DNA from: Natribacillus halophilus
Lineage (GTDB): Bacteria; Bacillota; Bacilli; Bacillales; Marinococcaceae
Length of the DNA: 64,000 bases
Direction: 5' to 3'
NCBI RefSeq assembly: GCF_900100185.1
Contig: NZ_FNEN01000010.1
Coordinates: 1-64,000, forward strand
This document shows positions 12,398 to 49,654 of this stretch, in pieces; the first letter of the stretch is position 1, and the number at the start of each line of letters is the position of its first letter. The notes beneath the pieces were generated by a model that saw only the letters and a list, made by a program, of their open reading frames with translations, was not told where the DNA came from and made no database searches. A program made the position numbers and the translations under genes.

Positions 12398-14554
12398 GTG
12401 TGGTCGAAAAGACGCGTGGTCCTCATGCTTATCATGGGGATCTTTTTGCTTTTTCCCTCGGTGGGGATGGCTTTTATCCCCGGATTGTTTGAGAGTGATG
12501 AAGATGCCGATGACGTGATGAATCCTCCCGACACGGTCGAAGAAGGCGGTGTGGAGGTGGAAAGTGAACGTTTCCCTATGGAATCCTATAGGGTCAACAA
12601 TGAATCGAACGATGAAAACATCATGGGCATTTTTGTAAGTATAAGTAACGCTGTCATGACGTTTTCAGGGCATGTGGTCTTACTCGTGGACACGGTTTTG
12701 GATGAATTATTTTCGCTTAATCCGATTGAACGATTTGCAGGGGCGATTAATCTAATCTCCCAATCCATTTATGACACCTTACAGGAACGCTTTGGTCAAT
12801 TATTGTTTCTTATCGCGATGGGATATATCACGTTTGTGATTGTCACAAAGGCATCCTTTCGAGAAGCCATCCGTCGTTTTATGTTATTTATCGGTGTGTT
12901 GATCTTTGCTGGGTTTTGGATGTTGAACAGTGGCTTTTTTATGCAGACGTTTAATGCGCTGTCTTTAGAGATGCAAGGGCACTTGATTGACGCCGGCAGT
13001 GGGATGTTTCATATGGTTGATGGCGATGGGGTGTATGATCAGTCCGGTTACATTGATGTGGAAGACCCGATGGATGGCACAATTGCGATGATGCGTAATG
13101 TCTATTTTGAACTGGCGATAAAACGCCCCTATATGATCGTTAATTATGGTGAAACGAGCGAAGATGCAGTTAATGAAAATGATGCGGTAGATACAGAAGA
13201 CTATGGCGGCAGCCAGTATAATCGTTTTGATCGACTTTTAGCGTTTGATTCCACGGAAGATGGGCAGGCCTTAAAGCAACAATATGTCGAGGAGGAAGAG
13301 GTGGATCAAAACGAGAATCTGTCGATGGGTTCAGGGGCCGTCTTTACCCAGCTGGGTCAAGTGCTGATTGGTTTACTGGTCGCCCTTTTTCTTGGCATTC
13401 CATTTACGGTTTTGGGCTTTTTAAATTTTTTGTTGCAGTTGATCGCGTTAGCCTTAGCCTTTTTCCTTCCGTTTTCCTTGATCCTGTCGTATATTCCACA
13501 CTTTGCGTATAGCGGTTTTAAAACCTTTTTTAAATTGTTGACGGTATTTTTAGTGAAAGCCATGTTGGGGCTGATCGTCGCGTTTGTCTATGTTTTGACG
13601 TTTGTCGTGGAAACCATGGTACCGCCGGATACCTTTGGGTTGTATTTGGCGAATGTCACGGTGTTGATATTCTTGCTTATTCTTCTCATGAAAAAGCGAG
13701 ACGCTTTGGTGAAATTGATCACGGCCGGACGTGTGCAGTCGTTGGACGGCCAATTTATGAATCAAGTGAATCAACGCATGGTCAACCCTGCGATGGATAA
13801 AGTCGGAAAGACGGCGTCCGCATTTAATCCGACCGCGGGAATGATGATCCATAAAATGAATCGAATGCGCCAACCATCAACGGAAAGGCCTACGCCCCGT
13901 TCATCGTCGAAGGCGGAAGCCAGCCAAGAAACCATGCATACGCAAGGCCAAGAGCAACGGGCTTCTCAAAAGGATCAACGTTTAGAAGGCGATCAACCGT
14001 CTAATCGTCAATATCATCAACCAGAAGAACGTCGCCCGCAAACGGATCAGAAAGAGAAAAAACAGAAGAAAAAGGAAAAACGAGGCGACGAGAGGAAAAG
14101 CGATGCGTCGAAAGAAGGGTTTCGTCCCGATAACAAGAAACGGAACAAAGATGGGTCAACGAAAAGGAGACATAAGCGTCGGTCTGATTTAGAAGATCGT
14201 CCGAAGAAACGTTCATCGAAGGATCATGCGGATGTAAACCAAAAGGAAAAACGAGGCGAAGAGAAGAAACGGAATGCACCGAAAGAAGCGTCACGTCTTG
14301 ATAGCAAGAAACAGAACAAAAATGGGTTAACGAAAAGGAAATATAAGCGTCGATCCGATTCATCAGAGCGCCGGATGGATCATTCATCGAAACATCATGT
14401 GAACATGAACCCAAAGGAAAAACGAGGGCAACCTTCGCCGAAGAAAAATCAAAGCCGAAAGGGAAATGACCACCCGAAACGGACCCCGCAAGAGAGAAAG
14501 GATGAAAAGGTAGAAAAGGAAATAAAACCCGTTGATAAAAAGGACAATCGTTAA
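12398..14554 (+). CDS. TcpH/ConG-type polytopic mating-channel protein (Tn916 Orf15) with a basic repeat tail
   Basis: About 718 aa. GTG 12398 is preferred because AAGGGAGG lies 8 bases before it; ATG 12377 would place that site inside the gene. A signal-peptide-like start (VVLMLIMGIFLLFPSVGMA) is followed by several membrane helices in two groups (about residues 135-180 and 310-440), as in VirB6-like channel proteins. From about residue 455 the tail is hydrophilic and very rich in Lys, Arg and Gln, with a 57-residue tandem repeat. The tail is much longer and more basic than the membrane core would need. Confidence 0.88.
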   Translation: MWSKRRVVLMLIMGIFLLFPSVGMAFIPGLFESDEDADDVMNPPDTVEEGGVEVESERFPMESYRVNNESNDENIMGIFVSISNAVMTFSGHVVLLVDTVLDELFSLNPIERFAGAINLISQSIYDTLQERFGQLLFLIAMGYITFVIVTKASFREAIRRFMLFIGVLIFAGFWMLNSGFFMQTFNALSLEMQGHLIDAGSGMFHMVDGDGVYDQSGYIDVEDPMDGTIAMMRNVYFELAIKRPYMIVNYGETSEDAVNENDAVDTEDYGGSQYNRFDRLLAFDSTEDGQALKQQYVEEEEVDQNENLSMGSGAVFTQLGQVLIGLLVALFLGIPFTVLGFLNFLLQLIALALAFFLPFSLILSYIPHFAYSGFKTFFKLLTVFLVKAMLGLIVAFVYVLTFVVETMVPPDTFGLYLANVTVLIFLLILLMKKRDALVKLITAGRVQSLDGQFMNQVNQRMVNPAMDKVGKTASAFNPTAGMMIHKMNRMRQPSTERPTPRSSSKAEASQETMHTQGQEQRASQKDQRLEGDQPSNRQYHQPEERRPQTDQKEKKQKKKEKRGDERKSDASKEGFRPDNKKRNKDGSTKRRHKRRSDLEDRPKKRSSKDHADVNQKEKRGEEKKRNAPKEASRLDSKKQNKNGLTKRKYKRRSDSSERRMDHSSKHHVNMNPKEKRGQPSPKKNQSRKGNDHPKRTPQERKDEKVEKEIKPVDKKDNR
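14072..14460 (+). repeat. 171-bp (57-codon) in-frame tandem repeat
   Basis: Units start with codons KEKRG at 14072, 14243 and 14414, exactly 171 bases apart. Two full units are followed by the beginning of a third. Shared blocks include KEKRG, SKEG/PKEA, KKRNKDG/KKQNKNG and TKR-KRRSD. It encodes the basic tail of the TcpH-like protein. Confidence 0.85.
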
Positions 14555-21243: not shown

Positions 21244-21376
21244 GAAGTGGGGCTAAAACATGGGGACGGCTCTCGTGTTTCGTTGTTCTAATTTCCGAAC
21301 TCCTCGTATTAAGCGGTAAAATAAATATTGAATAATCCTGATATAGACCTTTTCGAGGGGTTGGGCAGTGCCCTTA

Positions 21377-21441
21377 TTGATAAGTCATCTATTATGTGTT
21401 ACTATGTACCAGTAGTAAGTAATACATAATATCAGTATTAC
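21377..21441 (+). promoter_or_regulatory. Promoter and operator, first copy (PadR operon)
   Basis: -35 TTGATA (21377-21382), 17-bp spacer, -10 TACTAT (21400-21405), then inverted repeat GTAATAC-N9-GTATTAC (21419-21441) downstream, a likely PadR operator. Confidence 0.65.
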
Positions 21442-21515
21442 GTAATAGCAAGCGGTAAAATAAATATTGAATAATCCTGATATAGACCTTTTCGAGGGGT
21501 TGGGCAGTGCCCTTA

Positions 21516-21580
21516 TTGATAAGTCATCTATTATGTGTTACTATGTACCAGTAGTAAGTAATACATAATATCAGTATTAC
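21516..21580 (+). promoter_or_regulatory. Promoter and operator, second copy (PadR operon)
   Basis: Same elements 139 bases on: TTGATA 21516-21521, TACTAT 21539-21544, GTAATAC/GTATTAC 21558-21580. This copy ends 19 bases before the PadR start. Confidence 0.65.
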
Positions 21581-21599
21581 GTAATAGCAAAGGGTGATT

Positions 21600-31622: not shown

Positions 31623-34289
31623 ATGGACTACATTCTTGATTTCCATGATATTGATCGAACTAGTCTATCTATGGTGGGAGGAAAAGGGGCGAACCTTGGG
31701 GAACTAAGCCAAGCAGGTTTTTTGGTTCCCCCTGGATTTTGTGTGACCACTGCAGGATATAAGCGACTCATTCAAGGGAAGGAAGAATTGTATGATATGG
31801 TCCGACAGCTCGATCAATTATCAACAGATCAGTTCGAAGAGATACAACGGTTGGGGCAAAGCATCCGCGACTATATTCTAAATCTTGAAGTTCCCGAACC
31901 GTTATATTCAGCAATCATGATATCTTGGGAAAACACAGGGAAAGAACATACGTATGCTATTCGTTCCAGTGCTACAGCCGAAGACCTTCCCCATGCTTCA
32001 TTCGCTGGTCAACAAGACTCTTTTCTCAATGTAAAGGGGGAGGAGCAACTAGTCGAATCGATTCAAAAATGTTGGGCTTCGCTTTTCACTGATCGTGCCA
32101 TTGTTTACCGTGCTCAAAACGGCTTTGATCATCGATCTGTGTTTTTGTCTATTGTTGTACAACGAATGATTCGTCCTGAGGTATCTGGCATTATGTTTAC
32201 CGCTGACCCAGTTAGCGGGCATCGCCATACAGTTTCCATTGATGTAGGATTTGGCTTAGGGGAGGCACTGGTTTCTGGGGAGGTCACGGCAGACTTGTAT
32301 AAGGTGCGAGATGGGCAGATCACCGATAAGAAAATAGCTAAAAAAGAAAAAGGGATTTTTCCTCTTCCTGGTGGTGGAACGGAAATGAAGCCATTGCCCG
32401 TGGAGCAACAAGATCAACCAGCCCTTAATGATGCAAGGGCTCTGGAACTTGCTAATCTTGGAAAACAGATCGAAGAACATTATGGAACCGAACAAGACAT
32501 TGAATGGTCCCTTGAAGAGGGGCAGCTTTATATTTTGCAAAGCCGACCGATTACTTCACTTTTTCCCATCCCTGCATCCGATGACAACAAGTACCGTATT
32601 TATTTTTCCTTAGGCCATAAGCAAATGATGACGGATTATATGAAGCCTCTTGGCCTATCCCTTTTTCAAACATTAATACCATCGGTTAAAGAAGGGGGAG
32701 AAAATCTCCTTACAAATGCCGGCGGACGGTTATTTGTGAATTATTCTTATTTATTATATATGAAATCTGTACAGAAGCAACTCAAGCAAAAGACGTATAT
32801 AGATCTTGATCTTCGAGCCCTTCAAAACGTTGTGTTAAGTGAGGAATTTGAAAAAAGAATTCCTAAACGAGGAAATAAAAAGAAAGTCGTCCAACTTTAT
32901 ATCAAACCTATATGGCGTATAATGGGGAAGGCCATACCTAGAACCATCGCAAGTATCTACTTTGAGAATCCAACATTGGCCTTACAACGCGCCTATGCTA
33001 ATTTTCATGAAGACATTCATCGTTTTCAACAAAAGATGAAACAGTATGATCATGCCGAACGGATCCGTTTGATCAAGGAACACGCCAGACACGATTTATT
33101 CCAATCCCTTACTAACCCTGTAGCCTATACGTTTGTAGGAATGATAACATTCTCCCGTATTCAAAGGTGTGTCAAAAAATGGCTGGGAGAAGACGTAAAT
33201 CCCGCCATTCATCAATCTCAACCGGGGAATATTACGAGTGAAATTGGAATGAAGATTGGTGATTTGGCGGAGGCAGCAAGACCGTATCCGGAAGTGGTGG
33301 AATACCTTCATAAAGCAAACGATGAAACGTTTGTTCAAGACTTAAAAAGTGTCGAAGGAGGGGAAGTTTTTCTCACATCCCTGCATTCATTTATGGCAAA
33401 TTTCGGGATGCGGGCTTCAGGTGAGATTGATATTACCAGGGTTCGCTGGCATGAAGCACCGACCATGCTTGTGCCCTCTATTCTCAGTCATATGAGAAAT
33501 AACGCCCCCAATGAACATCACGAAAAATTTGCACATGGAGAACAAGAAGCTCGTGAAACGATCCAGGCGTTGTTAGAGCGTGTAAAAACGCGAAGGAGTC
33601 CAAGAAAAGCTAAAAAGCTCTCCCGCCTCCTCACCGTTTATCGGCATACGGTAGGCATACGAGAACTGCCTAAGTATGTGATTGTTTGTTATTTTGACGT
33701 TTATCGAAGGGTGATTCTAGAAGAGGCAAAATATCTTGTTCAACGAGGAGACCTTTATCAAGAAACCGACATCTACTACCTGACGTTAGATGAATTGATT
33801 GTACTATTGGAAAAGGGTTCCGAAGAGACTGTATCATCAATCCCCGATCGGAAAAATCATGAAAAGCGTTACCGAACGCTCATGCCTCCTAGTGTGATGA
33901 GCAGCGATGGAGAAATCTTCTCAGCTGTAAATCAAGATCAAGAATCTGCAAATGTATTGGTAGGAACGCCAGTATCTGCAGGTGTTGTTGAAGGGACTGT
34001 TAAAGTGGTTCGAAGTTTGGAAGAAGGGGAATTGAATAAAGGAGATATTCTCGTCGCCCCTTATACAGATCCAGGATGGACACCTTTATTTTCTTCAGCA
34101 AAAGCCCTTATAACAGAGGTTGGAGGAACCATGACACACGGATCGGTCGTGGCCAGAGAAAATGGCATACCTGCTGTTGTCAGTGTAGAGAATGCAACGA
34201 AAATCTTAAAAGATGATCAAATGATCCGGGTGGACGGAACGGGAGGGTTTGTTGAAATATTAGATGATGAGATAGACAACGCTAAGTAA
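31623..34289 (+). CDS. PEP-synthase-like dikinase, probable rifamycin phosphotransferase (Rph) family
   Basis: 888 aa in the Rph/PpsA order: ATP-grasp domain at the N-terminus (MVGGKGANLGELSQAGF, then IRSSATAEDLPHASFAGQQ, and FTADPVSGHR), a middle helical domain (about residues 330-770), and the swivelling His domain near the C-terminus (GGTMTHGSVVARENGIPAVV, catalytic His). Size and layout fit Rph enzymes, which inactivate rifampicin by phosphorylation using ATP. True PEP synthases have a C-terminal PEP-binding barrel, which is missing here. The drug substrate is inferred. Confidence 0.85.
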   Translation: MDYILDFHDIDRTSLSMVGGKGANLGELSQAGFLVPPGFCVTTAGYKRLIQGKEELYDMVRQLDQLSTDQFEEIQRLGQSIRDYILNLEVPEPLYSAIMISWENTGKEHTYAIRSSATAEDLPHASFAGQQDSFLNVKGEEQLVESIQKCWASLFTDRAIVYRAQNGFDHRSVFLSIVVQRMIRPEVSGIMFTADPVSGHRHTVSIDVGFGLGEALVSGEVTADLYKVRDGQITDKKIAKKEKGIFPLPGGGTEMKPLPVEQQDQPALNDARALELANLGKQIEEHYGTEQDIEWSLEEGQLYILQSRPITSLFPIPASDDNKYRIYFSLGHKQMMTDYMKPLGLSLFQTLIPSVKEGGENLLTNAGGRLFVNYSYLLYMKSVQKQLKQKTYIDLDLRALQNVVLSEEFEKRIPKRGNKKKVVQLYIKPIWRIMGKAIPRTIASIYFENPTLALQRAYANFHEDIHRFQQKMKQYDHAERIRLIKEHARHDLFQSLTNPVAYTFVGMITFSRIQRCVKKWLGEDVNPAIHQSQPGNITSEIGMKIGDLAEAARPYPEVVEYLHKANDETFVQDLKSVEGGEVFLTSLHSFMANFGMRASGEIDITRVRWHEAPTMLVPSILSHMRNNAPNEHHEKFAHGEQEARETIQALLERVKTRRSPRKAKKLSRLLTVYRHTVGIRELPKYVIVCYFDVYRRVILEEAKYLVQRGDLYQETDIYYLTLDELIVLLEKGSEETVSSIPDRKNHEKRYRTLMPPSVMSSDGEIFSAVNQDQESANVLVGTPVSAGVVEGTVKVVRSLEEGELNKGDILVAPYTDPGWTPLFSSAKALITEVGGTMTHGSVVARENGIPAVVSVENATKILKDDQMIRVDGTGGFVEILDDEIDNAK

Positions 34290-47577: not shown

Positions 47578-49332
47578 ATGGAAAATTACGAAGTTGAAGT
47601 CATAAAAGCCAATCGAAAATTAACTAATCGGACCAATTCCGATCTTTCCGACACTTTGAAAGTAGCTCCTTATGCGCGTGTAAGCACAGATACTGAAGAA
47701 CAGCTCAGCAGTTATCAATCCCAAGTACAGCATTACACAGACATGGTGGATCAACGTAGTGATTGGACATTAGTAGATATTTATGCTGATGAAGCAATTA
47801 CTGGAACACAAACGGTGAAACGAGAAGATTTTCAGCGGCTTATTAATGATTGTATAGATGGAAAGATTGATATGATCATAACGAAGTCGATATCAAGGTT
47901 TGCCCGAAATACATTGGATACTTTAAAGCATGTTCGTCAATTAAAAGAGAAAAATATTGCGGTTTTGTTTGAAGATGAGAACATTAATACAATGACAATG
48001 GATGGAGAACTTTTGCTCACCATTTTAAGTTCAGTCGCACAACAGGAAGTAGAAAATATTTCTGCCAATGTGAAAAAGGGACTGCAAATGAAAATGCAGC
48101 GAGGTACTATGGTTGGTTTTCAAAGCTGTCTTGGTTATGATTATGATCCACAAACCAAAGAGATTTGCATTAATAAAGCAGAAGCTCAAATAGTACGCTA
48201 CATTTTTAGACGTTATATTGAGGGAATAGGAACCGGAGTTATTACAAGGGAGCTTATGCAAGCTGGACTTAAAACCAAAAAAGGAAGTGAAATTTGGAGA
48301 GATTCGACTGTTCTTTTCATCCTAAAAAATGAAAAATATAAAGGAGATTTATTGCAAGGGAAATCATTTACGGTTGATCCCATATCTAAGAGAAGACTTG
48401 CAAATTTTGGTGAGGTCAACCAGTATTACGTTAAGAATCATCATGAACCAATTATAAGTAGAGAAGTGTTTGATAAGGCACAAGATTTTTTAAACAGAAG
48501 AAGCAAAGCGAAATTGAAAGGGAAAAGAAAACATGGAAAAACCGGTGGAAAGTATAGTAGGTTATATACATTTAGCAGCTTGTTGGAATGCGCACATTGT
48601 GGAAACATTTATAGTCGGCGTTCGTGGCATGCAGAGACTACACATAAGAAAACAGTGTGGGAATGCGTTACTAAAACTAAAAAAGGAAAGAAATATTGCC
48701 TTCATAGTAAAGCCGCAGGAGAAGCAGTTCTTGAGGAAGCTTTTGTGCAATCATATCGGAAGCTTTGTCGAAACCATAAGGAAGTATTGAATGAATTGCT
48801 TCATACAATGGAATCTTTGCTAATGGATAAAAAGCAGCAAAAAAGACTAGATAAACTCTCAAAAGAGATTAATCATATAGAACAAAAAAGTCGAAAGTTA
48901 CTTGATTTATTAATGGAAGAAGAGATCGATAAAATTTCTTATGATCATAAACGAAATGAACTGCAAACAACCGAAGCTCGATTACGTGAAGAAAAAGAAA
49001 AACTGGAACGATCAATTCAACAAACAAATTCCGTAGAAGCACGGATTAAGAAGTTTCAAGAAGTGCTGACGGAAAATGATATCTTACCTGAGTTTGACCG
49101 TCATGTATTTGAAAGCATCACAGAAAAAGTGATTATGGGTGATCCTACTAAACAAAAACCTAACCAAATCACATTTATATTTAAGACAGGTGAACGTAAA
49201 ATTATGGATGGAAAAAGACTTGCAGATGATCAAAAAAAGCCCGTAGAAAAAGAAAGGAGTGAGCCGCTTTCCCTTTCCTTTAACAACACAGGTAGAGAGC
49301 GTGACGCGGTTGGTGCGGAGGTAATGCCGTAA
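47578..49332 (+). CDS. Large serine recombinase (ICE integrase/excisionase)
   Basis: 584 aa. Catalytic resolvase domain at the N-terminus with YARVSTDTEEQLSSYQSQV (Ser about 39) and SISRFARNTLD; recombinase domain (GYDYDPQTKEICINKAEAQI); zinc ribbon LECAHCGNIYSRR with later Cys (WECVTKTKKGKKYC); long coiled coil (about 410-520); beta-rich end (ITEKVIMGD... ITFIFKTGE). ATG after AAAGGAG. The last 14 codons after FNNT lie beyond the att core, in host DNA. In the circular element the frame would instead run into 1603-1773. Confidence 0.94.
   Translation: MENYEVEVIKANRKLTNRTNSDLSDTLKVAPYARVSTDTEEQLSSYQSQVQHYTDMVDQRSDWTLVDIYADEAITGTQTVKREDFQRLINDCIDGKIDMIITKSISRFARNTLDTLKHVRQLKEKNIAVLFEDENINTMTMDGELLLTILSSVAQQEVENISANVKKGLQMKMQRGTMVGFQSCLGYDYDPQTKEICINKAEAQIVRYIFRRYIEGIGTGVITRELMQAGLKTKKGSEIWRDSTVLFILKNEKYKGDLLQGKSFTVDPISKRRLANFGEVNQYYVKNHHEPIISREVFDKAQDFLNRRSKAKLKGKRKHGKTGGKYSRLYTFSSLLECAHCGNIYSRRSWHAETTHKKTVWECVTKTKKGKKYCLHSKAAGEAVLEEAFVQSYRKLCRNHKEVLNELLHTMESLLMDKKQQKRLDKLSKEINHIEQKSRKLLDLLMEEEIDKISYDHKRNELQTTEARLREEKEKLERSIQQTNSVEARIKKFQEVLTENDILPEFDRHVFESITEKVIMGDPTKQKPNQITFIFKTGERKIMDGKRLADDQKKPVEKERSEPLSLSFNNTGRERDAVGAEVMP
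49283..49324 (+). pseudogene. Displaced 3' end of rlmD and attR core
   Basis: In the frame different from the recombinase, TTQVESVTRLVRR and stop TAA at 49322-49324 form an RlmD C-terminus. The core ACACA is at 49286-49290. This is the original tail of the host gene cut off by integration. Confidence 0.8.
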
Positions 49333-49654
49333 TGATTGCGATCATTTTTTTTTCTCTCATCGGCGTTCTTATCGGTATGACATCCAGTTTATTCGGGTTC
49401 GGCGGTGGTTTTATCGTCGTACCGATTCTTTACGCCTTCTTGCCTGACACGATTCCTGCTGATTATGTGATGCATACGGCGATTGGAACGTCACTCGCCG
49501 TGATGATTATCAATTCTTTCAATTCAACGCTTAATCATGCGAGAAAAGGGAATGTGCAGGTAGAAGGATTGCGCAAACATTGCCCGACCCCCTGTTTTCG
49601 AAAGCGTATATCGTTTTGCTTGTAATTGTTGTGGTTATGATGGTATTTGGCTAA
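49332..49654 (+). pseudogene. TauE/SafE-family sulfite exporter, internally deleted
   Basis: The N-terminal part (GVLIGMTSSLFGFGGGFIVVPIL and following, with two TM helices) is intact to EGLRK, then a different frame gives the C-terminal end LPDPLFSKAYIVLLVIVVVM MVFG and stop at 49652-49654. More than half of the about 260-aa protein is missing. First host gene right of the ICE. Confidence 0.85.

Follow-up and report, generated by a model that had tools for sequence, protein, structure and literature searches.

The window, a stretch of 64,000 nucleotides of Natribacillus halophilus DNA, contains an integrated conjugative element located between a rlmD/rumA-type methyltransferase gene and a TauE-like short frame (49332-49625). 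The rlmD/rumA-type gene (254-1642, +) codes for a 23S rRNA methyltransferase with the Pfam domains tRNA_U5-meth_tr and TRAM, and takes its last codons (1603-1642) from the element. Pfam matches to an FtsK-like coupling protein, a Rep_trans relaxase, TcpC, an AAA_10 (VirB4-like) ATPase and a Lysozyme_like/M23 cell-wall enzyme were found in the element and, as read from these hits, its conjugation genes are of the ICEBs1/Tn916 kind. A Bacillus-plasmid RNA (Rfam RF01691, 6411-6472) lies directly downstream of the relaxase gene. The element also harbors 171-nt tandem repeats (14070-14427) inside a 725-aa conjugation-region gene without Pfam match, a perfect tandem duplication of 139 bp (21311-21588) and an 888-aa cargo gene (31623-34289) with PPDK_N and PEP-utilizers domains, whose size and domain content are reminiscent of rifampin phosphotransferases. 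The 50-nt repeat D4 is explained by two pemK cis-regulatory RNA motifs (Rfam RF02913; 46513-46611 and 47166-47264), which lie 653 bases apart on the upstream side of the recombinase gene.

The recombinase gene runs from the ATG at 47578 to a stop ending at 49332 and encodes 584 aa, with the Resolvase (PF00239), Recombinase (PF07508) and Zn-ribbon (PF13408) domains of serine recombinases all scoring above cut-off. Residues 1-571, through the core codon ACA, are encoded by the element (47578-49290, +) and are identical up to 49290 in G021, another genus of the same family that carries the same element (right-end DNA identity of 99.8%). Junction translations in the three frames indicated that the end of the gene (49291-49332, +) consists of 13 host-encoded codons and a stop, the protein reading ...SFNNT and then, past the core, GRERDAVGAEVMP. 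In another frame, these bases are the original 3' end of rlmD (VESVTRLVRR and stop). The recombinase frame thus crosses the right att core, as had been proposed from a first reading of the DNA; the 14 codons then given for the host-encoded end are correct if the stop is counted, and correspond to 13 residues proper.

Attachment cores and exchanged gene ends

The attL core region ACACACATCGAG (1598-1609, +) and the attR core region ACACAGGTAGAG (49286-49297, +) were aligned without gap, anchored on GAG. Comparison with the copy of the element in G021 narrowed the crossover to three bases (1600-1602, equivalent to 49288-49290), because the left ends differ at the host bases 1598-1599 and agree from 1600 onwards, whereas the right-end identity stops after 49290. 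Joining host DNA to host DNA at this position restores a rlmD gene of 460 aa, ending ...TTQVESVTRLVRR / ...FPQTTQVESVTRLVRR before the stop; the integrated rlmD has 462 aa. This register was retained because it restores the empty-site rlmD and because G021 and about 75 other left ends are concordant with it. A register two bases further on, at the second ACACA, would leave a tail of 26 codons and was rejected since it truncates the empty-site rlmD.

When the two element ends are joined instead, the excised attP would read ...AACACACATCGAGTGTGTGG... in frame, and the recombinase would continue as ...SFNNT followed by HRVCGFDTSEGYVKVLSFQHPTKFYTFEEDEDGFLTKKLNHYIDVCVALDLDLPFV, that is 56 codons and a stop ending at 1773, for a total of 627 aa. 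This segment (1603-1773, +), hereafter the tail, has homologous counterparts in 75 left ends, and its start overlaps the element-supplied end of rlmD in another frame. These translations are in agreement with the earlier note, which had predicted an in-frame join ending at 1773 (57 codons with the stop) and proteins of about 627 aa in the circle and 584 aa in the integrated form. An intrinsic terminator-like stem (1797-1823) followed by a T-run (1797-1833, +) begins 24 bases past the tail stop, as was also described there; the recombinase unit of the circle and, after integration, rlmD are expected to end at this terminator. We consider it nearly certain that integration exchanges the C-terminus of the recombinase. 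On this reading, the element is an ICE with an attP situated within the 3' portion of the serine recombinase gene that it carries.

The frame in which the core is crossed is conserved. Among the distinct related recombinases, the core could be recognised in 85, and 83 of these pass through it in register with the tail, the exceptions being L021 and L026; 12 further related recombinases, in which the core was not recognisable under the pattern used, were left out of this count. As they stand in their genomes, the recombinases so counted stop a median of 12 codons past the core, and 18 of them stop within one codon. In the more distant serine recombinases found (about 36% identity), the protein stops close to the final beta strand of the Zn domain, with neither core-crossing nor tail. 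The earlier note had named, as evidence that would speak against it, relatives devoid of any tail and ending near ITFIFKTGE; within the clade, the recombinases instead cross the core and the left ends encode the tail.

Related recombinases naturally fused to homologous tails were found in tandem arrays. In G021, the recombinase runs straight into the left end of a second element for 58 further codons and, though that left end differs in sequence, the extension has a clear protein similarity to the tail. No circle junction (attP) was present in the sequences found, the database recombinase-tail fusions examined being tandem arrays. Two candidates for a natural attP copy were rejected: in the plasmid pAPRE01, the right junction of the recombinase runs into a different, tail-less sequence, and the G529 fusion sits in a chromosomal contig. 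From its annotation and junctions, the circular plasmid pAPRE01 (NC_013164.1; L189, L329) looks like a head-to-tail ring in which a conjugative element and a smaller one, equipped with a recombinase of its own, are joined at two rlmD-type cores. In four left ends (L174, L195, L205 and L226), the tail is present and the upstream sequence is not the usual rlmD end (FP.T.HVE) but, for example, ...SINSSHVE, which suggests other targets or arrays. A decayed left end was observed at rlmD in another genus (L187, G010:C48 56500-64000), with a stop codon in the tail; a related recombinase was not found in that genome at E 1e-60.

Conservation and selection of the tail

The openness of the tail frame alone proves little, because 56 open codons are expected by chance at 2% in a first-order simulation of the stretch and at 22% at random forward positions of the window; the comparison with relatives is decisive. 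The 75 full-length left ends, collected from across Bacillota, were aligned at the core, an open tail frame being the entry condition (75/75 by construction). Over codons 14-49, a region located beyond the rlmD stop in most of these left ends, dN/dS was 0.18 in the tail frame versus 1.08 and 1.53 in the other two frames. In 24 non-overlapping pairs of tails, 35, 22 and 122 changes were counted at codon positions 1, 2 and 3, respectively. A chance open frame, to which the earlier note had allowed about 6%, is excluded by these one-frame selection tests. The same values bear on the idea that the frame is open as a side effect of the att-site DNA or of the rlmD coding frame and contributes no protein function to the recombinase. 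Over roughly the first 13 codons there is indeed an overlap with the core and with the substitute rlmD end, but selection was measured past the rlmD stop and acts on amino acids in one frame only, two thirds of the changes fall at third positions, and conservation extends across genera with diverged DNA, so that this explanation is extremely improbable. On these sequence comparisons, the tail is a selected protein domain, under selection for its amino acids in a single frame.

A profile built from 11 tails was used for searching genomes with related recombinases. The tail was detected in 45 of 47 such genomes, mostly with E values of 1e-20 to 1e-31, and in 18 of a second group of 20 genomes or records, of which two had already been in the first group. 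One genome, G159, has a related recombinase (49% identity) in which context the tail was not detected. Among 399 genomes drawn evenly from the class, the tail was present in 9 of 10 genomes with the recombinase versus 16 of 389 without it (p = 3e-11, kinship being ignored and no tree correction applied). One of the 16 tail-bearing genomes scored as recombinase-less, G404, has a recombinase of 42% identity. Near full-length, stop-free tails were present in 51 of 52 recombinase-bearing genomes versus 5 of 16 with a tail but no related recombinase at threshold, by a hand count from the result tables after removal of two doubly listed genomes. The sequence sets are related by descent, the counts are given without tree correction and the genome handles may include repeats.

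How the tail is read was approached through its start codons. No conserved start codon for the tail was found among the 75 left ends. Codon 3 is GTG in 49 of them, but these bases belong to the att core and are also read as rlmD. In the window, a GTG at 1639 is preceded by GGAAGGA and shares bases with the rlmD stop (GTGA), as in translational coupling, which would be compatible with a separate small protein translated downstream of rlmD in the integrated element, the in-frame join being incidental. This start is not conserved, since just 3 of the 75 left ends have a start codon at codon 13, and at codons 4-20 ATG, GTG and TTG are all absent from 58 of them; moreover, an independent small gene would not need the recombinase frame that is kept at the core throughout the clade. 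We therefore regard a separate small protein as very unlikely. Terminator-like structures were present 3' of the tail in 35 of 75 left ends versus 1 of 75 shuffled sequences, which fits a genuine 3' gene end. Taken with the selection on the tail, the lack of a conserved start indicates that the circle or a tandem array is most likely its only source. It is highly probable that the recombinase has a functional C-terminus in the tail.

Possible role of the tail and comparison with known systems

As deduced from the sequence, the recombinase gene of the circle encodes 571 residues and the 56 conserved residues of the tail, followed by the terminator, and it is complete only there or in tandem arrays. 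Crossover at the ACA core places the tail at the opposite, left end of the element, where its initial codons double as the end of rlmD in another frame, and leaves the recombinase with a few host-encoded codons. The full-length enzyme present in the recipient cell may be the form that performs attP x attB integration, and the short form, once the tail is lost, may integrate poorly and excise only with a directionality factor. Loss of the tail would then be a self-terminating step, reset by excision, that prevents further rounds or eases factor-dependent excision. Selection on the tail would have to operate in the circle, the simplest setting being a new host just after transfer, in which the enzyme needs to insert the element; support of integration is therefore the likeliest role of the tail. 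The tail probably favours integration or limits re-excision, the swap is plausible as a regulatory switch of recombinase form, and this form could thereby tell an integrated element from an excised one. Taken as a whole, a circle-only tail combined with a directional, self-terminating step is the explanation that we favour, with some reserve; its directional component, considered by itself, is put forward tentatively.

AlphaFold, with 62 aligned tails, predicted a two-stranded beta-hairpin with a core pLDDT above 90. For the natural fusion found in G021 (629 aa), the model shows the usual domains, a long coiled coil, a disordered linker (547-583) and then strands at 584-620 that were predicted with moderate confidence; the tail was not confidently docked. 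No credible match to the tail was found, by sequence or fold, in Pfam, PHROGs or PDB, and NCBIfam matched only the body of the recombinase; three tail members matched DUF4325, with a best E value of 0.0027. The main rival to a directional role is an effect on stability or amount, in which the short form would be weak or unstable and activity would be dampened both ways in the integrated state. A small hairpin joined by a predicted disordered linker is what a stability or partner-binding module might look like, and the integrated form of the Mx8 integrase is reported as less active in a study cited in PMC4701971. We consider this alternative rather unlikely, although the present observations agree with either role.

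The one-way control of serine integrases is of central interest, both in mobile elements and in their use as genome-writing tools. It is possible, though short of an even chance, that a widespread clade of serine integrases carries a conserved circle-only C-terminal domain, DNA topology switching the enzyme between a form that integrates and one that does not, so that directionality would not come solely from the directionality factor. If the tail belongs to the active integrating enzyme, the recombinases of this clade that database surveys take from integrated genomes would be truncated, with host-encoded codons at their end, and before any assay the tail would have to be put back from the opposite end of the element. 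As a simple sequence marker, the conserved tail also locates the far end of such elements.

Serine integrases of the phiC31/Bxb1/A118 type perform integration, and excision depends on a factor. The present recombinase shares with them the Resolvase, Recombinase and Zn-ribbon domains and a coiled coil, whereas the distant relatives found (about 36% identity) have neither core-crossing nor tail. In mycobacteriophages such as BPs, integration swaps the C-terminus of a phage protein, which thereby reports the integrated state; unlike here, the protein changed in this integration-dependent immunity is the repressor and not the recombinase. The phage Mx8 has its attP inside the integrase gene, and integration replaces 112 C-terminal residues by 13 with a change of activity, according to PMC4701971 and PMC6070905; this older precedent is a tyrosine recombinase of a myxobacterial phage, unrelated in protein and target. 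The closest system is that of the streptococcal rumA ICEs, for which a C-terminal swap of the serine integrase has already been published (Ambroset 2016, PMC4701971). As described in that paper, these elements have a single serine integrase, the same target (rumA, of the rlmD family) and an attR that lies within the integrase gene; integrase and target gene reciprocally swap their 3' portions with a change of reading frame, and the excised form has a longer or different C-terminus. The present element likewise sits in the 3' part of rlmD, has its attR inside the integrase gene and exchanges the 3' ends; its recombinase is 53% identical to that of phi-SsuZKB4_rum, and the streptococcal rum element records MN270258 and MN270269 carry a homologous tail. 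The swap reported here thus belongs to a kind already described in the streptococcal rumA ICEs and in Mx8. In the literature searched, whose incomplete coverage is not a proof of novelty, no statement was found on the tail as a conserved domain, on its span across Bacillota or on its lack of an own start. Where PMC4701971 deals with streptococcal elements and with a changed length and C-terminus, the tail appears here as a selected domain distributed across Bacillota, and what seems new is that it forms a conserved, selected domain of a large clade.
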